64,000 bases of DNA. Origin: Marinobacter sp. F3R11 (GTDB lineage: Bacteria > Pseudomonadota > Gammaproteobacteria > Pseudomonadales > Oleiphilaceae). The translations under genes were made by a program, and so were the position numbers. The notes under the pieces were generated by a model. It had not been told where the DNA came from. It saw only the letters and a program-made list of their open reading frames with translations, and made no database searches. The stretch is taken from contig NZ_QOCH01000015.1 of NCBI RefSeq assembly GCF_003318275.1, positions 159,608 through 223,607 on the forward strand, given 5' to 3'. How positions within the stretch are numbered: the first letter of the stretch is position 1; each line of letters starts with the position of its first letter. Positions 51,688 through 58,775 of the stretch are shown here, one piece after another.

Positions 51688-52554
51688 ATGAGCTATCAAT
51701 CTGTATTCCACCCCGGCCTGTTCAGGGGCCGGATATTTATCGTGACCGGTGGCGGTTCCGGTATCGGCCGCTGCACGGCCCACGAACTCGCCTCCCTTGG
51801 GGCAAGAGTTGCGCTTGTTGGTCGCAAGTCCGAAAAGGTTGAAGCAGTAAAAGCAGAAATTCTTGAAGACGGCGGCATTGCCTCGGCTCATGTGTGCGAC
51901 ATCCGTGAAGAAGAGGCAGTGCAAGCCACGGTGACAGCGGTCATCGAAGAGCATGGAGGGCTGAACGGCGTGGTTAATAACGCAGGAGGTCAGTTCCCCT
52001 CACCCCTCGCCGGCATCAATCAGAAAGGCTGGGAAACCGTGGTGCGTACCAACCTCACCGGCGGATTTCTGATGGCAAGAGAAGCCTACACCCAGGCGTT
52101 GATAAAAACCGGTGGGGCCATCGTAAACATAGTGGCGGACATGTGGGGAGGCATGCCCGGCATGGGGCACTCAGGCGCAGCAAGAGCCGGCATGGTGAAC
52201 TTCACGCAAACAGCTGCGGTGGAATGGGGAGCTTCCGGCGTCCGCGTAAATGCCGTTGCACCCGGCTGGATTGCTTCGAGCGGCATGGATAGCTACCCGG
52301 AGCACATGAAACAGTGGATTCGCGGGCTCGCGGACAATGTTCCTGTCAAACGCATGGGGACAGAATCTGAAATCAGCGCTGCTATCTGCTTTCTCCTGAG
52401 CCCCGGGGCTGCGTTTATCAACGGTGACTGTCTGCGTATTGACGGTGGAGCCTCACAGGGTACCCGCGTGTGGCCTCTGCCCAAAGCAAAGAACAACACA
52501 CCCTTTAATGGCTTTCACCGTGCAGTAACACCCAAAGTTCTCAGTGAGGATTAA
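51688..52554 (+). CDS. atuB: Short-chain dehydrogenase/reductase AtuB
   Basis: SDR protein of 288 residues in the atu operon. The cofactor motif is TGGGSGIGRCTA and NNAGG follows at the expected spacing. The usual YxxxK catalytic pair is replaced: the aligned stretch reads MGHSGAARAGMVNF, where His and Arg occupy those positions. The same HSGAARAG sequence occurs in peroxisomal trans-2-enoyl-CoA reductases, so an enoyl-CoA type reduction is more plausible than alcohol oxidation. It is also consistent with the C-terminal VEWGASGVRVNAVAPGWI. It overlaps the open frame of atuC at its 3' end. Confidence 0.88.
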   Translation: MSYQSVFHPGLFRGRIFIVTGGGSGIGRCTAHELASLGARVALVGRKSEKVEAVKAEILEDGGIASAHVCDIREEEAVQATVTAVIEEHGGLNGVVNNAGGQFPSPLAGINQKGWETVVRTNLTGGFLMAREAYTQALIKTGGAIVNIVADMWGGMPGMGHSGAARAGMVNFTQTAAVEWGASGVRVNAVAPGWIASSGMDSYPEHMKQWIRGLADNVPVKRMGTESEISAAICFLLSPGAAFINGDCLRIDGGASQGTRVWPLPKAKNNTPFNGFHRAVTPKVLSED

Positions 52555-52564
52555 GGAAAGCTTT

Positions 52565-54181
52565 ATGCAGACACTGGAATCCAGGGTTAATCCACAATCT
52601 GAAGAGTTTCGGAGCAATACCGAGGCCATGAACACCCATATCCAGATGTTCCGCGACCTGGAGCAGAAGGTTCTGGACCTGGCTGAAGCCGCACGAGAAA
52701 AGTTCACCAGGCGGGGAAAGCTCCTGCCCCGGGATCGCATCAACCGCCTGTTGGACAAAGGCACTCCTTTCCTGGAACTTTGCTCCCTGGCCGGTTACAA
52801 AATGCATGACGACAAAGACGGCAGCATGGCCGGCGGCAACATCATCGCCGGTATTGGAACAGTCAGTGGCATACGCTGTCTGGTGGTCGCCAGCAACAGC
52901 GCCATCAAAGGTGGCACCATCACACCTGCAGGCCTGGATAAAACCCTGCGCCTGCAACAGATCGCCAAAGAAAACAAACTACCGGTTGTTTCCCTGTCAG
53001 AAAGCGGCGGCGCCAACCTGAACTACGCCACCGACATATTCGTGCAGGGTGCACGGAGCTTTGCCAACCAGGCCCGGATGTCTGCAGCAGGCCTGCCCCA
53101 GATTACCGTTGTGCACGGCAACGCTACTGCTGGCGGAGCCTATCAGCCGGGCTTGTCTGACTATGTAATCGCTATCCGTGGCCAGGCAAAAATGTTTCTG
53201 GCAGGCCCTCCACTACTGAAAGCCGCAACCGGCGAAATAGCCGATGACGAAGAACTCGGCGGCGCAGAAATGCACGCCCAGATTGCCGGCACCGCAGAAT
53301 ACCTGGCCGAAGACGACGCTGACGGCATCCGCATGGCCAGGAACATTCTTGAAGCCCTGCCCTGGAATGAGCATCTACCTCTGAAGCGCGAGTTGAAATG
53401 GGATGAGCCGCTTTATCCGGCAGAAGAGCTTCTGGGCGTCATCCCATCTGATGCAAAAAAAACCTGGGACGTTCGGGAAATTCTGGCACGAATTGCTGAT
53501 GGATCCAGGTTCATGGACTTCAAGAATGAATTCGACAATCACACCGTATGCGGCACCATCCGCATTGAAGGGCACGCTGTCGGGATTATCGGTAACAACG
53601 GGCCGATTACACCGGCGGGCAGTGCAAAAGCAGCCCAGTTTATTCAGCTCTGCGATCAGGCCGGCACGCCACTGCTGTTTCTGCACAACACCACCGGTTT
53701 TATGGTGGGGACACACGCCGAGCAGAACGGCATCATAAAACATGGATCGAAAATGATTCAGGCGGTCGCCAACTGCCGTGTACCCAAGGTCGCAATCGTA
53801 ATCGGCGGATCCTATGGCGCAGGCAACTATGCCATGTGTGGCCGCGGCCTGGATCCGCGTTTTATCTTTGCCTGGCCCAACAGCCGCACAGCCGTCATGG
53901 GTTCTGCACAGGCCGGTAAGGTAATGCGCATAGTGGCGGAAGACAAACAACGCCGCAACGGCATAGAGCCTGACCTGAAAACCCTGGATTTTCTGGAGCA
54001 GGCCACAGCCAAAAAGCTGGAGGATGGTTCCACGGCTCTGTTCGGTACAGCCCGGCTCTGGGACGACGGTCTGATTGATCCACGAGACACGCGGCGCGTA
54101 GTCGCCCTGGTTCTGGACGTGTGCCGCGAAGCGGAGATCCGTCAGTTGCGGCCTAATACATTTGGTGTGGCCCGCCTCTAG
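52565..54181 (+). CDS. atuC: Geranyl-CoA carboxylase beta subunit (carboxyltransferase)
   Basis: Transfers CO2 from carboxybiotin to cis-geranyl-CoA; 538 residues from ATG 52565, with AAGGA upstream. It belongs to the acyl-CoA carboxylase carboxyltransferase family, with crotonase-like N and C halves: GGTITPAGLDKTLRLQQIA, LSESGGANLNYATDIFV, GGAYQPGLSDYVIA, GNNGPITPAGSAKAAQFIQLC and VIGGSYGAGNYAMCGRG. Pairs with atuF, about 2.6 kb downstream. Similar to leucine-pathway MCC beta, but the operon context favours geranyl-CoA. A palindromic repeat region follows. Confidence 0.92.
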   Translation: MQTLESRVNPQSEEFRSNTEAMNTHIQMFRDLEQKVLDLAEAAREKFTRRGKLLPRDRINRLLDKGTPFLELCSLAGYKMHDDKDGSMAGGNIIAGIGTVSGIRCLVVASNSAIKGGTITPAGLDKTLRLQQIAKENKLPVVSLSESGGANLNYATDIFVQGARSFANQARMSAAGLPQITVVHGNATAGGAYQPGLSDYVIAIRGQAKMFLAGPPLLKAATGEIADDEELGGAEMHAQIAGTAEYLAEDDADGIRMARNILEALPWNEHLPLKRELKWDEPLYPAEELLGVIPSDAKKTWDVREILARIADGSRFMDFKNEFDNHTVCGTIRIEGHAVGIIGNNGPITPAGSAKAAQFIQLCDQAGTPLLFLHNTTGFMVGTHAEQNGIIKHGSKMIQAVANCRVPKVAIVIGGSYGAGNYAMCGRGLDPRFIFAWPNSRTAVMGSAQAGKVMRIVAEDKQRRNGIEPDLKTLDFLEQATAKKLEDGSTALFGTARLWDDGLIDPRDTRRVVALVLDVCREAEIRQLRPNTFGVARL

Positions 54182-54199
54182 GGGTTGTAAATAGGCGGA

Positions 54200-54312
54200 C
54201 GGCACCGGAGCGAAGCACCACCCAAAAAGCGCCCGTAAATACGTCCCTGTAGGGCTCGGTCGCGCCATCCCTGGCGCTCCACGTTTTTGGGTGGTGCTTC
54301 GCCCCGGTGCCG
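54200..54312. repeat. Palindromic element A (29-bp stem) after atuC
   Basis: Left arm 54200-54228 and right arm 54284-54312 are complementary at 28 of 29 positions; the 55-base core contains GCGCCATCCCTGGCGC and TACGTCCCTGTAGGG. On the reverse strand the core resembles that of elements B and C: GGAG, a small hairpin around NGGA, then ACAGGGACGT. It is non-coding and only 18 bases after the atuC stop. It likely forms a strong RNA stem that could stop or trim the operon transcript. Confidence 0.82.
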
Positions 54313-54390
54313 ATCAACCTGGATTTATCGCACCGAACAAATATTGAAACAGAAAATAGTTAGCTGGTGGCGGTGCAGTTGCAGACATAA

Positions 54391-54500
54391 GCGGCTGTGG
54401 GGACAGGCTTTCAGAAAATGTCGGAGGCCATGGATGGCCGGAGTCAAGCGCACACGGACGTGCTTGTAGCGGTTTTCTGAAAGCCTGTCCCCACAGCCGC
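54391..54500. repeat. Palindromic element B (perfect 28-bp stem) before atuD
   Basis: Arms 54391-54418 and 54473-54500 are perfectly complementary. The 54-base core has GGAGGCCATGGATGGCC and CACACGGACGTG. Core and inner arm are clearly homologous to element C (44 of 52 core bases identical by my alignment), while the outer arm, GCGGCTGTGGGGACA, is not. Together with A it fills the 384-base atuC-atuD gap, where no gene is supported. Confidence 0.88.
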
Positions 54501-54565
54501 GACCCAAGTCAAAGAACCAGCGCCAATAGATGTAAGCAAGAACTAAATATCAGGAGAACAACAAC

Positions 54566-55720
54566 GTGAAATTCACAGCCGAACACGAAGCCCTGAGAAA
54601 AACAGTTCACGACTTTGTACAGAAAGAAATCAACCCATATTGCGATGAGTGGGAAGAAGCAGGGGAATTCCCCATTCATGACATATTCAAAAAAATGGGC
54701 AACCTAGGCCTGCTGGGCATTCAGAAGCCTGAAGAATACGGCGGTATGGGGCTGGACTACAGCTATAACCTTGTAGCAGCTGAAGAACTGGGCATGGCCA
54801 ACTGCGGCGGTGTACCTCTGGCGATTGGTGTGCAAACCGATATGTGTACCCCGGCCATATCCCGCTTCGGCTCCGACGAACTCAAGCGTACCTTCCTGGC
54901 TCCGGCCATTGCCGGTGACATGGTGGGCTGCATTGGTGTGAGTGAAGTCGGCGCCGGTTCCGACGTGGCAGGAATGAAAACTACCGCAAAAAAAGACGGC
55001 GACGACTACCTTATCAACGGCTCTAAAATGTGGATAACCAACGCCCCGAGAGCAGACTTCATATGCCTTTTAGCCAACACCAGCGACGACAAGCCACATA
55101 AAAACAAATCGTTGATCATGGTCCCCATGGACTCCCGGGGCATAACCATGAGTCCGAGTCTGAACAAGCTGGGCATGCGCTCCTCGGAAACTGCCCAGAT
55201 CTTCTTTGACAACGTTCGGGTTCCACAGCGCAACCGCATTGGCGCTGAAGGCATGGGCTTTATGATGCAGATGCTGCAGTTCCAGGAAGAGCGGTTATGG
55301 GGTGCTGCAAATGTTATCAAAGCGCTGGAAAACTGCATCAACCAGACTATCGATTACTGCAAGGAACGCAAAACATTCGGCACACCACTGATTGATAACC
55401 AGGTGATCCACTTCCGTCTGGCCGAACTACAGACTGAAGTAGAGGCCCTGCGCGCCCTTACCTATCAGGCCTGTGAACTGCACATCGAAGGCAAGGAAGT
55501 CACCAAGCTCGCCTCCATGGCCAAGCTGAAAGCCGGGCGTCTGGGCCGCGAGGTTACTGATAGCTGCCTGCAGTACTGGGGGGGCAATGGTTTTATGTGG
55601 GACAACCCGGCATCCCGTGCATTCCGCGATGTTCGTCTGGTATCCATCGGCGGCGGTGCCGATGAAATCATGCTGGGGATCATCTGCAAAATGATGGGAA
55701 CCTTGCCAGGCAAGCGCTAA
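54566..55720 (+). CDS. atuD: Citronellyl-CoA dehydrogenase
   Basis: Acyl-CoA dehydrogenase of 384 residues that oxidises citronellyl-CoA to cis-geranyl-CoA in the Atu pathway. Family landmarks: CIGVSEVGAGSDVAGMKTTA, WITNAPRADF, RNRIGAEGMGFMMQMLQFQEER and, near the C-terminus, CLQYWGGNGFMWDN. It starts at GTG 54566 with CAGGAG 12 bases upstream. Palindromic elements lie on both sides, so its transcript may be processed away from atuABC. Confidence 0.9.
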   Translation: MKFTAEHEALRKTVHDFVQKEINPYCDEWEEAGEFPIHDIFKKMGNLGLLGIQKPEEYGGMGLDYSYNLVAAEELGMANCGGVPLAIGVQTDMCTPAISRFGSDELKRTFLAPAIAGDMVGCIGVSEVGAGSDVAGMKTTAKKDGDDYLINGSKMWITNAPRADFICLLANTSDDKPHKNKSLIMVPMDSRGITMSPSLNKLGMRSSETAQIFFDNVRVPQRNRIGAEGMGFMMQMLQFQEERLWGAANVIKALENCINQTIDYCKERKTFGTPLIDNQVIHFRLAELQTEVEALRALTYQACELHIEGKEVTKLASMAKLKAGRLGREVTDSCLQYWGGNGFMWDNPASRAFRDVRLVSIGGGADEIMLGIICKMMGTLPGKR

Positions 55721-55739
55721 AGCTGAACCTAGATGCCAA

Positions 55740-55812
55740 GCCGGTAATGCGATTGAACTCTTCAGGACACGCCCGCGAGTACGTCCTTGTAGGGCTCGAT
55801 CGCACTACCGGC
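55740..55812. repeat. Palindromic element D between atuD and atuE
   Basis: Arms GCCGGTAATGCGAT (55740-55753) and ATCGCACTACCGGC (55799-55812) pair at 13 of 14 positions. The 45-base core contains GAGTACGTCCTTGTAGGGCTCG, the same core sequence type as element A (TACGTCCCTGTAGGGCTCG). It occupies most of the atuD-atuE gap. Confidence 0.78.
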
Positions 55813-55839
55813 CCCAAATAATGTTCGTGGAGTCTATCG

Positions 55840-56661
55840 ATGGAAACCTTGCCTCACTGCAAAACACTGGTACTGGAAAAACAGGGGCCAGCCCTGCACA
55901 TCACCATCAACCGGCCAGACACCCGGAACGCGATGAGTCTGCAAATGGTGGCGGAGTTATCCAGGATCTTTACCGAAGTGGAATCTGATGCCAGCATACG
56001 CGCCGTGGTAATCCGGGGCTCTGGCGGTCACTTCTGTGCAGGCGGTGACATCAAAGACATCGTCGGTGCCCACAACCAGAAAACCGGTGAAGGCGAAACC
56101 GACCCCTTCTACCGTCTCAATCGTGCATTCGGTCAAATGATCCTGCAGGTAAACGAATCCTCCAAAGTAGTCATCGCCATCACCGAAGGTGCTGTGATGG
56201 GTGGCGGTTTTGGTCTGGCCTGCGTATCCGATGTCGCTATTGCGGGCCCGACTGCCAGATTCGCCATGCCAGAAACCTCCCTCGGCATCATCCCAGCCCA
56301 GATCGCTCCGTTTGTAGTTGAACGCATCGGCCTGACCCAGGCCCGCAGGCTTGCGTTGCTCGGGTTAAGAATTGGAGCAGAAGAAGCCTGTGCGCTGGGC
56401 ATCGTGCACCAGGTCGCCTCATCCGATGCTGAGCTGGACGGCATGCTGGCTCAAGCGCTGGAATGCATTCGCCATTGCGCACCAGGCGCCACCGCGAAAA
56501 CCAAAGCCCTGCTCCACAGTGTTGGGCGCGAGCCCATGAGCGGATTGCTCGACAGTGCAGCTGAAATGTTCACAGCAGCCGTCCGCGGCAGTGAAGGTTC
56601 CGAAGGCACAATGGCATTCATGCAAAAACGCCCACCAGCCTGGGCAGACGAAAACCGTTGA
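55840..56661 (+). CDS. atuE: Isohexenylglutaconyl-CoA hydratase
   Basis: Enoyl-CoA hydratase/isomerase (crotonase) of 273 residues that hydrates isohexenylglutaconyl-CoA after carboxylation by AtuC/AtuF. Crotonase features: the oxyanion-hole segment SGGHFCAGGDIKDI, EGAVMGGGFGLACVSDVAIA and FAMPETSLGIIPA. Start ATG 55840. It is flanked by palindromic elements D (upstream) and C (downstream). Specificity is inferred from the atu operon order, since crotonases are hard to separate by sequence. Confidence 0.88.
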   Translation: METLPHCKTLVLEKQGPALHITINRPDTRNAMSLQMVAELSRIFTEVESDASIRAVVIRGSGGHFCAGGDIKDIVGAHNQKTGEGETDPFYRLNRAFGQMILQVNESSKVVIAITEGAVMGGGFGLACVSDVAIAGPTARFAMPETSLGIIPAQIAPFVVERIGLTQARRLALLGLRIGAEEACALGIVHQVASSDAELDGMLAQALECIRHCAPGATAKTKALLHSVGREPMSGLLDSAAEMFTAAVRGSEGSEGTMAFMQKRPPAWADENR

Positions 56662-56671
56662 TTGCGGAGCG

Positions 56672-56781
56672 AGTGAGAGGGAAAGAGGCTTCCAGAAAGT
56701 GTTGGAGGCCAAGGACGGCCGGAAACAAGCGCACATGGATGTGCTCGTAGCGGTTTTCTGGAAGCCTCTTTCCCTCTCACT
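56672..56781. repeat. Palindromic element C (about 27-bp stem) between atuE and atuF
   Basis: Arms 56672-56698 and 56755-56781 are perfectly complementary. The core carries GGAGGCCAAGGACGGCC and GCACATGGATGTGC. It is homologous to element B in core and inner arm (CAGAAA-TGTNGG), but its outer arm AGTGAGAGGGAAAGAGG is unrelated to that of B. It begins 11 bases after the atuE stop and ends 32 bases before atuF. Confidence 0.88.
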
Positions 56782-56813
56782 TACGGCCTTGCACCGATTA
56801 AGAGAAATACGCC

Positions 56814-58775
56814 ATGTTGAAGAAATTACTAATAGCAAACCGGGGCGAAATCGCAGTCCGCGTCATTCGCACTGCCAAAGCCCTGGGATACCGCACCGTG
56901 GCCGTATACTCAGAGGCTGACGTCAACGCCATGCACACCGGGCTGGCAGATGAAGCCGTATGCATAGGGCCAGCTCAGGTATCCGCGTCTTACCTGAACA
57001 CCGGGGCCATACTCGATGCTGCCCGTAAAACAGGCGCTGACTGCATACACCCGGGTTACGGTTTTCTTTCCGAAAATGCCGGTTTTGCCAACGCCTGCAA
57101 AGACGCAGGTATCGTATTCGTAGGCCCTCCAGCCAGCGCCATTGAACTCATGGGCAGCAAGCGCCGTTCAAAGATCGCCATGCACAAAGCCGGAGTCCCC
57201 GTCGTTCCCGGATATGAAGGCGACAACGCCAGTGATGATGAACTCATCTCCGCTGCAGCCGACATTGGCTACCCTCTGATGATCAAAGCCTCCGCCGGCG
57301 GCGGTGGCCGAGGCATGCGTCTGGTCGAGAAAGAGTCAGAACTGGCCAGCAACATCAAGCGCGCCAGATCCGAATCAAGGCAAGCCTTCGGCGACGACGA
57401 ACTGATCCTCGAAAAAGCTGTTATCGAACCTCGCCACGTGGAAATACAAGTCTTTGCCGATCGCTACGGCAACGCCGTGTACCTGGGCGAAAGAGACTGC
57501 TCAGTGCAGCGCCGGCACCAGAAAGTCGTGGAAGAAGCTCCTTCCCCTTTCGTGACCCCCGAGCTCCGGGCTGCCATGGGCAAAGCTGCCGTTAAAGCAG
57601 CCCTCGCCTGCAACTACGAAGGTGCTGGCACCGTCGAATTTCTCGTGGACAAGAACCGGAACTTCTATTTTCTGGAAATGAACACCCGCCTGCAGGTAGA
57701 ACACCCGGTTACCGAATTGATTACCGGGCAAGATCTGGTCGCCTGGCAGTTGATGGTGGCTGAAGGCCTGCCTCTGCCGATAGCTCAGAATGACATTGAA
57801 CTGAACGGCCACGCCATCGAAGTCCGGCTCTACGCCGAAGATCCCTCTCAGGGGTTCACCCCTCAAACAGGCCTGATGCATGTGTTTGAACCCGCAGAAG
57901 GCGAAGGCCTGCGCTTTGATACAGGCGTCCGCTCCGGCGATACGATTACGCCTCACTACGACCCCATGCTCGCAAAAGTTATCGCCTGGGGAGAAAACCG
58001 GGATCAGGCCCGCCGGCGGCTGATCCGGGCCCTGGAAGACACCTGCGTCTTTGGTGTAAGCACCAACCGGTACTTCCTCAGCCGCATTATTTCAGACAGC
58101 AGCTTTGGTGCTGGCGAGGCAACCACCGCCTTCCTGCAGACGAGATTCAACAAAGACCCGTCGCTGCAACCAGCCAAACCAGAGATCCGCCAGCTTGCCC
58201 TCGCAGCCTGCATACTGACTCACGGCACTACCGGGGAGGAATACTGGAGCAACGCACCAGCCACCTACATTCCCATGAAACTCGACACTGGGAATGAAAC
58301 CGTTGAACTACTGGTGAAGCGAAGCGGCAATACGCTTTCCTGCACACTGAACGACAAACATCATGAGATAGCAGTCATCAGCATTCACAACGGCAGCTTA
58401 TGCACCAACGACAACGGGGTTCGCCAGCGCTGCCGATATCACCATGAAGGGGACTCGCTGTATTTACAGGCACACGGAGAATCCTGGGCAGTAAGAGACC
58501 TTACTCATCAGCCCGCAGCCATTGCCAGCGGGCCTGGCAACGGACACATCCAGGCCCCGATGGACGGTTCCATTATCGACGTGCTGGTTGAGCCCGGCCA
58601 GCCAGTTAGCCAGGGCGACCCCCTGATCATACTGGAAGCCATGAAAATGGAGCACCCGGTTAAAGCCGGCTGTGACGGCATTATTGCCCAGGTTCTGACA
58701 CGTAAAGGCGACCAGGTGAAGCGCAATCAGGTGCTCGCCGAAGTCTCCTCAGGGGAAGCCATTCCGGGGCGCTGA
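56814..58775 (+). CDS. atuF: Geranyl-CoA carboxylase alpha subunit (biotin carboxylase and BCCP)
   Basis: Biotin-dependent carboxylase subunit of 653 residues. Domains: biotin carboxylase N-terminal domain (LLIANRGEIAVRVIRTAKALG), ATP-grasp (MIKASAGGGGRGMRLV), C-terminal carboxylase domain (EVRLYAEDP), and a BCCP domain in the last 75 residues with the biotinyl lysine in EAMKMEHPV. It partners AtuC. It needs biotinylation by BirA, and bioB/bioF are near the start of this window. Element C separates it from atuE; a quinone oxidoreductase gene converges at its 3' end. Confidence 0.93.
   Translation: MLKKLLIANRGEIAVRVIRTAKALGYRTVAVYSEADVNAMHTGLADEAVCIGPAQVSASYLNTGAILDAARKTGADCIHPGYGFLSENAGFANACKDAGIVFVGPPASAIELMGSKRRSKIAMHKAGVPVVPGYEGDNASDDELISAAADIGYPLMIKASAGGGGRGMRLVEKESELASNIKRARSESRQAFGDDELILEKAVIEPRHVEIQVFADRYGNAVYLGERDCSVQRRHQKVVEEAPSPFVTPELRAAMGKAAVKAALACNYEGAGTVEFLVDKNRNFYFLEMNTRLQVEHPVTELITGQDLVAWQLMVAEGLPLPIAQNDIELNGHAIEVRLYAEDPSQGFTPQTGLMHVFEPAEGEGLRFDTGVRSGDTITPHYDPMLAKVIAWGENRDQARRRLIRALEDTCVFGVSTNRYFLSRIISDSSFGAGEATTAFLQTRFNKDPSLQPAKPEIRQLALAACILTHGTTGEEYWSNAPATYIPMKLDTGNETVELLVKRSGNTLSCTLNDKHHEIAVISIHNGSLCTNDNGVRQRCRYHHEGDSLYLQAHGESWAVRDLTHQPAAIASGPGNGHIQAPMDGSIIDVLVEPGQPVSQGDPLIILEAMKMEHPVKAGCDGIIAQVLTRKGDQVKRNQVLAEVSSGEAIPGR

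Follow-up and report, generated by a model that had tools for sequence, protein, structure and literature searches.

A dispersed YPAL-related repeat in Marinobacter with variable long arms and twin ANGGAN loops, a candidate CsrA-binding RNA

The 64,000-nucleotide stretch of the Marinobacter sp. F3R11 genome analyzed here (the window) carries an operon resembling the atu cluster, and four long palindromes, A to D, lie in three of its intergenic gaps. Throughout, the two arms and the core between them are treated as one element, and the strand that carries GGA in the loops is taken as the element's plus sense. Judged by their sequences, A, B, and C represent the same element in three copies, and D is a fourth, shortened by a deletion of 40 nucleotides (nt). 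The element is dispersed in this and related genomes, its arms differ from copy to copy and stay paired, and the fold of its GGA strand seems to be under selection. The explanation that we favor, at roughly even chances, is that it is a miniature repeat related to YPAL/RU-2 in which RNA from the GGA strand would form a binding site for a CsrA dimer, set on a structural stem.

Four copies of one element in an atu-like operon

The original prediction of four palindromes at these places held up: the arms of A, B, and C are 97 to 100% complementary, and D is weaker, with a 14-nt arm pair containing one mismatch within a weaker hairpin. Each of the four folds better than 200 of 200 dinucleotide shuffles (fold z-scores on the GGA strand for the four elements, -9.3, -9.6, -8.2, and -4.4). 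B and C had been described as having alike cores and unrelated outer arms, and this is what we find: they align over 82 nt at 87% identity, and their outer arms are unrelated. The core of A, thought to be a rearranged version, turned out to be the same core on the minus strand. The orthologue of D in the nearest relative is a full element, from which D in the window differs by the missing 40 nt and otherwise by one mismatch in the alignment. No Rfam family scored above threshold in the stretch from 53800 to 57000 of the window; the many sub-threshold matches to microRNA families in the Rfam scans reflect long stems only and were set aside.

A dispersed family

BLASTN searches of the window's own genome (G000) with B and A gave the first further copies. 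Twenty elements were taken from this genome, 19 full ones and D, with arms of 22 to 30 bp that mostly differ per copy; the cores of the 19 full elements are 52 to 58 nt long. In the alignment of these 19 copies, 99.4% of cells are paired and both members are altered in 26 of 33 pairs; none of 500 shuffles did as well. A genome-wide covariance search had been suggested together with the original prediction, and the model built from this alignment (R1) matches 29 places in G000 (31 rows, with two places entered a second time on the reverse strand). Within the window R1 finds only A, B, and C, plus B on the reverse strand, which agrees with the earlier impression that there is no other full copy there; D is below the model's reach. 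Reverse-strand scores of 41 to 42 bits were recorded for window positions 54391-54500 and for C5:4452-4552 and C14:351698-351798 of G000, and because strong elements reach such scores on the reverse strand, strand calls from weak matches need care.

R1 copies are present in all 25 genomes of the genus that were searched (G000 and 24 congeners); of 13 other genera of the order, 3 have them. Copy numbers range from 3 up to at least 106 in a genome. Named genomes scanned with a pattern gave at least 115 stretches; the matches listed include Marinobacter, Halomonas, Vreelandella, Saccharospirillum, Alloalcanivorax, and Stenotrophomonas, as well as Idiomarina, Haliea, Pectobacterium, Samsonia, and Yersinia similis, and R1 matched 30 of the 30 non-Marinobacter loci tested.

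Arms that seem to change in place and cores that are shared

The original prediction held that the stem may be copied as a unit. A and the G000 copy at C5:140551 are identical at 54 of 55 core positions and agree at only 7 of the 17 arm positions compared; over 351 pairs of G000 elements, outer-arm agreement is 0.37 against 0.30 expected from composition. Because alike cores carry unrelated arms, copying of the stem as a unit does not explain the pattern in general; arms are shared in 1 of the 351 pairs. The place corresponding to C5:140551 carries the copy with changed arms in G061, G119, G134, and G096, another core with other arms in G093, G077, and G101, and an interrupted core in G008; the stretch shown for G041, G042, G092, and G072 has no element.

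The atu locus, of which 105 instances were found in the genus and 90 analyzed (30 + 60), allows orthologous sites to be compared. The elements found at the 90 loci are orthologous, lying on the minus strand in the D gap and on the plus strand in the C gap; in eight genomes the C gap has a minus-strand neighbor, and one of the eight, L157, has an extra domain that interrupts the plus copy. Within one site, three or more types of Watson-Crick pair occur at 12 to 19 of the 26 arm positions. Between nearest neighbors, compensated arm differences number 82 of transition type and 84 of transversion type, and the uncompensated ones comprise 44 G·T, 4 A·C, and 35 other mismatches. In the B gap the core subtypes differ among species and the outer arm stays similar among the sequences listed. 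Given the compensation at sites and the different core subtypes behind a similar outer arm, it seems that the arms evolve where they stand, constrained to pair, and that the cores are exchanged or homogenized separately.

The near equality of the two types of compensation would also be expected if the palindromes were a mutational by-product, in which template switching perfects the arms, recombination homogenizes the cores, and nothing is functional. Partial-deletion scars at several sites suit this idea, as do the inversion of a pair block and the outer flanks of that block in G008, which are themselves inverted repeats (see below).

Two further observations concern the atu gaps. Upstream of atuD, seemingly only the right arm of B remains near the atuC stop in L091, L101, L109, and L116 (by eye), and these scars are alike in the four species. 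Another recurrent hairpin, GTCGGATTACGCC...GGCTAATCCGACCTACG, stands beside some elements, in the atuD-atuE gap of L139, L144, L147, and L154 and in the atuC-atuD gap of L099 and L112.

Which strand is selected

A G·T mismatch on one strand is an A·C mismatch on the other, and the stem search scored both alike. On the GGA strand of 216 elements, the arm mismatches comprise 152 G·T and 17 A·C, with the G·T cells mostly in the outer part of the arm; the ratio is 90:16 when each position and type is counted once per site, which is the only count in which kinship is handled. The excess of G·T is seen where the GGA strand is the operon sense strand (57:3 and 8:2), where it is the antisense strand (30:2 and 20:3), and in elements elsewhere (36:7). 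Away from the atu loci that were retrieved, 172 elements, some of them also among the 216 and with A, B, and C of the window included, give 124:17, and among them the co-directional antisense copies give 27:3, the co-directional sense copies 21:1, and the non-Marinobacter copies 34:3. Because a mutational bias of transcription or replication would track the gene or the fork and not the element, what seems to be under selection is the fold that the element's own GGA strand adopts when single-stranded. The same strand asymmetry argues that template switching is not the whole story: switching should not track the element strand, and it leaves both the 152:17 ratio and the ANGGAN loops unexplained. 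A by-product with no function is, in our estimate, very improbable.

The original prediction had also raised strong selection on RNA structure. Selection on structure is supported by the compensated arms at orthologous sites and by the preponderance of G·T over A·C on the GGA strand. As to the molecule, we infer RNA, the natural reading given the loops; single-stranded DNA (ssDNA) would give an excess of the same sign. The operon mRNA does not fit, because the antisense copies share the bias.

This last point bears on another explanation, that these are operon hairpins of the REP/ERIC kind, acting in mRNA as stability barriers, RNase III substrates, or attenuators in either orientation. The gene context is in keeping with it. 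The 64 classifiable single copies comprise 19 sense and 22 antisense copies between co-directional genes, 17 copies between convergent genes, and 6 between divergent genes, whereas the gaps longer than 60 nt in the named loci (n = 250) divide into 144 co-directional, 47 convergent, and 59 divergent; thus, the copies are rare between divergent genes (6/64 versus 59/250). These orientations come from a simple longest-open-reading-frame caller, with 78 of the 172 elements "unclear." Single copies (n = 41) lie a median of 35 nt after the upstream stop, 31 of them within 60 nt, and every strand tested has a much better fold than its shuffles. YPAL repeats, moreover, are said in a review to be expressed with upstream genes ("co-translated") and possibly to influence the stability of their RNA (PMC2229807). 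However, the antisense copies keep G·T on the element's own strand in all three antisense counts above, where an mRNA would carry A·C, and the loop motif would have no role. The G·T/A·C test on antisense copies leads us to reject a hairpin of the operon mRNA as the selected form, and we regard this explanation as quite unlikely.

Twin loops and CsrA

The invariant columns of the 19-copy alignment include C-A-N-G-G-A-N-G in both hairpins of the core. To guard against the circularity of finding elements by their cores, hairpins were also detected by stem alone at two orthologous gaps. This stem-only set comprises 96 distinct cores, and two hexaloop hairpins are present in 92, with ANGGAN in 83 of the 92 first loops and 83 of the 92 second loops and any of the four bases as the first N; all C-gap hairpins were read as plus, so that minus-strand neighbors count as misses. 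A core pattern with up to four mismatches gave 343 distinct elements, and in 338 of them two ANGGA motifs lie 19 to 22 nt apart, mostly 21.

A CsrA/RsmA site is described as a hairpin with an ANGGAN hexaloop, for which systematic evolution of ligands by exponential enrichment (SELEX) gave the consensus RUACARGGAUGU, and one CsrA dimer is described as bridging two sites 10 to 63 nt apart (passages in PMC7652899). The element has two ANGGAN hexaloop hairpins within this range of distances. Hairpin 2 comes near the SELEX consensus by eye (CUACAGGGACGU in A and GUACAGGGACGU in several other copies), and the csrA gene is present in 17 of 17 relatives searched. In a search for an internal promoter, TATAAT-like matches upstream of the GGA strand were slightly better than those downstream but no better than those on the reverse strand of that flank. 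On sequence grounds, the loops match a CsrA/RsmA site; the GGA strand is predicted to be transcribed and its RNA to be bound by CsrA. Searches of an open-access literature collection turned up no study that connects CsrA with YPAL or REP-type repeats.

In the explanation that we favor, the selected form would be RNA from the GGA strand, whose two loops would seat one CsrA/RsmA dimer. The long stem would be a scaffold only, presenting the loops and protecting the RNA, so that any paired sequence would do. The arms would vary since only pairing is tested, probably aided by arm-to-arm copying in replication, and the cores would be kept alike by loop recognition and by exchange between copies. Each copy could be a CsrA landing pad on nearby RNA and the copies collectively a dispersed sponge, with GGA-strand RNA affecting either nearby RNA or the CsrA pool. 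A bolder form of this proposal, in which the repeat has spread a complete CsrA-dimer RNA to more than 100 places per genome, where it tethers or titrates CsrA independently of orientation and its fold is selected in place and not by transposition alone, is offered tentatively, as somewhat unlikely.

Several observations weigh against CsrA-binding RNA as the selected form. Of the 41 single co-directional copies, 22 are antisense; with about half of the copies in this orientation, read-through alone would not give GGA-strand RNA from these, and the antisense copies would need a transcript of their own. The sole family-based evidence for an RNA, the Rfam family Ysr224, concerns the TCC strand. 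The TwoAYGGAY family, at its gathering score of 43, has no match in the window, and elements elsewhere stay below it (33.9 bits for L122, 32.0 for L310, and 31.6 for L126). The csrA gene was not found in the G000 assembly, which is 82% complete, and the published CsrA site does not include perfect 28-bp stems. Transversion-type compensations being as common as transition-type ones, arm-to-arm copying is favored over stepwise selection via G·U. Finally, the strict -/+ order of close pairs and the inversion of a pair block, described below, point to processes at the DNA level.

Some copies depart from the twin-loop plan. An extra domain of about 80 to 85 nt lies inside the hairpin-2 loop, taking the place of the end of the ANGGAN loop, in L076, L094, L100, L122, L134, and L139 and also in L149, L157, L245, L248, L310, and L361. 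It has hairpins of its own (ATGAAGC..GCTTCAT, AGCAATC..GATTGCT, and CCCC..GGGG) and recurs at different sites, twice per locus in L139, L149, and L245; it may represent either a second-order insertion or an alternative apical domain.

Pairs, ends, and movement

Neighboring elements no more than 400 nt apart are always in -/+ order: 22 of 22 in the named loci and 10 of 10 in G000 and its relatives (some loci counted twice); the same order is found in 32 of 32 neighbors at the atu loci, which are orthologous and not independent. In the one-contig genome G126, 11 of 11 neighbors within 500 nt are -/+, and the 13 neighbors at 0.5 to 5 kb show all four orders; a replichore strand bias in this genome gave no clear pattern by eye. 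The pair middles listed are not alike. Of 60 paired elements, 26 have a CAGGCTA-like motif in the outer 3' flank and none has it in the 5' flank; of 112 single elements, 10 and 8 do, respectively.

Comparison with empty sites in relatives, also suggested at the outset, revealed presence and absence both at the atu gaps and at a pair in G000 (C5:979289-979615) that was followed in 12 relatives, all but G096 and G072 of which gave a clear picture. This pair sits within a block of about 400 bp between inverted TAGCCTG motifs. The block has the same orientation in G093 and G119 (L378 and L379 keep that of G000). In G061 and G008 it is inverted and has arms of its own, and in G077 and G101 it is inverted and partly deleted; the inverted orthologues (L381, L383, L386, and L388) have TAGCCTG/CAGGCTA ends. 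It is absent from G092 and G134, where the flanks join directly, which is compatible with loss or with the block never having been present. At the same site G041 has 90 nt with a piece resembling one end, and G042 has 28 nt. In L383 (G008), the flanks beyond the TAGCCTG ends are inverted repeats of each other, nearly perfect over about 20 bp (TTGGTGCTCTTTTTCTTTG against CAAAGAAAAAGAGCACCAA).

Such behavior could be that of a mobile ssDNA hairpin, the chief competitor of the explanation favored here, whose GGA strand would be recognized in folded form by a nuclease or transposase, so that only well-folded copies move, and whose -/+ pairs with TAGCCTG-type ends would be composite units. On the one hand, dispersal in up to 106 or more copies per genome, the invariable order of close pairs, the enrichment of the flank motif beside them, the absence or inversion of the pair block in relatives, and the occurrence of different core subtypes at one site all speak for it, and G·T is the milder mismatch in ssDNA too. 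On the other hand, it leaves the ANGGAN identity of both loops without explanation, the elements occupy orthologous sites across the genus while their arms keep compensating, and a strict pattern found no match in viral contigs, looser relatives being beyond the scope of that pattern. A mover was sought in Y1_Tnp, in line with the REP-associated transposase (RAYT) named in the original prediction. Y1_Tnp occurs in 16 of 28 genomes and is absent from the other 12, G000 and several high-copy genomes among them, and none of the 30 Y1_Tnp loci examined has an element in the stretches of flank covered; for this lack of association, a RAYT/Y1 transposase was rejected as the mover. A mobile ssDNA hairpin, although unlikely, keeps appreciable weight because the antisense copies need a transcript, the Yersinia small RNA is on the other strand, and inversion and pairing favor DNA processes.

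YPAL targets are reported to span or adjoin dyads (PMC2229807). Insertion of the present element into preexisting terminator hairpins is not supported: the arms undergo compensation where they stand, and, by eye, A/T runs are found at their inner and not their outer end.

Features of the window

The coordinates are collected in Table 1. The gene names follow gene order, which fits the atu cluster; none of the NCBIfam models specific to that cluster reached its cut-off on the window genes.

Table 1. Elements, their arms and loops, and neighboring genes in the window
Feature	Position	Strand	Details
Element A	54200..54312	-	29-nt arms, 55-nt core (54229-54283); R1 model 91.2 bits
A arms	54200-54228/54284-54312		29 nt, 97% complementary
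A hairpin-1 hexaloop	54267..54272	-	AGGGAT
A hairpin-2 hexaloop	54243..54248	-	AGGGAC, stem TAC/GTA
Element B	54391..54500	+	perfect 28-nt arms, 54-nt core; R1 model 107.1 bits
B arms	54391-54418/54473-54500		28 nt, 100% complementary
B hairpin-1 hexaloop	54430..54435	+	ATGGAT
B hairpin-2 hexaloop	54454..54459	+	ACGGAC
A/B pair	54200..54500		-/+ order, 78-nt middle
Element D	55740..55812	-	truncated; hairpin 1 and part of one arm gone via 40-nt deletion
D hairpin-2 loop	55783-55788	-	AAGGAC, retained
Element C	56672..56781	+	perfect 27-nt arms, 56-nt core; R1 model 100.4 bits
C arms	56672-56698/56755-56781		27 nt, 100% complementary
C loop	56711-56716	+	AAGGAC, read from sequence
C loop	56735-56740	+	ATGGAT, read from sequence
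Carboxyltransferase subunit gene	52544..54181	+	AtuC-like by order
Acyl-CoA dehydrogenase gene	54566..55720	+	AtuD-like by order
Enoyl-CoA hydratase gene	55840..56661	+	AtuE-like by order
Biotin carboxylase gene	56814..58775	+	AtuF-like by order

Comparison with known systems

In terms of core homology, the element belongs with YPAL; it does not do so by length or by common arms. The primary paper on YPAL repeats, in Yersinia and Pectobacterium, is reportedly that of De Gregorio in 2006. A aligns at 43 identical positions with the Y. pestis RU-2/YPAL core sequence published in Table 1b of PMC2759123, and 0 of 5000 shuffles are as good. In the reverse comparison, R1 scores YPAL-type copies from Y. 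similis, Pectobacterium, and Samsonia at 55.5 (L250), 57.6 (L232), 50.9 (L252), and 48.7 bits (L228). Both repeats are intergenic and dispersed, and presence or absence at a site among relatives is encountered here as well. In the passages describing it, however, YPAL is about 168 bp long with imperfect internal inverted repeats, whereas the present element is about 110 nt long with near-perfect, site-specific arms; a unit of about 168 bp with flanking sequence common to the copies is not what we find (outer-arm agreement, 0.37 versus 0.30). Unlike YPAL, it also forms -/+ pairs that carry motifs at their ends, falls into core subtypes, and reaches copy numbers of 106 or more.

Ysr224 (RF02770), annotated in Rfam as a Yersinia small RNA, is the YPAL core on the opposite strand. 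The core region is common to the two: A scores 23.3 bits with this model, and the Yersinia, Pectobacterium, and Samsonia copies score 73 to 130 bits. Ysr224 differs in being modeled on the opposite strand, with TCC loops. L250, L252, L228, and L232 exceed the cut-off, always on the strand opposite the ANGGAN loops. None of the Marinobacter-type copies scanned reached the gathering score of 70, the best G000 copy scanned having 32.9 bits (L058).

TwoAYGGAY (RF01731, Weinberg 2010) is similar in plan, with two AYGGAY-loop hairpins and an outer stem; in passages on it, it is predicted from its motifs to bind CsrA (PMC4333381) and listed in gamma-Proteobacteria and Clostridiales (PMC2864571), and these passages do not describe it as a dispersed repeat. 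At the gathering score it has no match in 18 loci of the named genomes. By these model scores the element is not classed as TwoAYGGAY or as Ysr224.

Other comparisons are looser. REP/BIME elements (GTAG, CGTC) are likewise intergenic palindromes that form inverted dimers and lie downstream of genes (PMC3733652), but REPs are 20 to 40 bp long, and no association with RAYT was seen here. Small RNAs of the CsrB/RsmZ type share GGA in hairpin loops and several sites (PMC7652899); they are, however, products of small RNA genes with many sites per molecule, whereas here there are two sites per dispersed copy, in a putative transcript.

What YPAL-, ERIC-, and REP-type hairpins do beyond mobility is a long-standing question. 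A strand-specific structural constraint that is independent of host-gene direction, combined with two near-invariant loops that match the site of a named regulator, moves the loosely framed debate between RNA stability and selfish DNA to a direct CsrA binding test. If the explanation favored here is correct, marine Gammaproteobacteria would hold a large hidden set of CsrA ligands, and it would link three separate entries, namely the YPAL repeats, Ysr224 of Rfam, and the TwoAYGGAY architecture.

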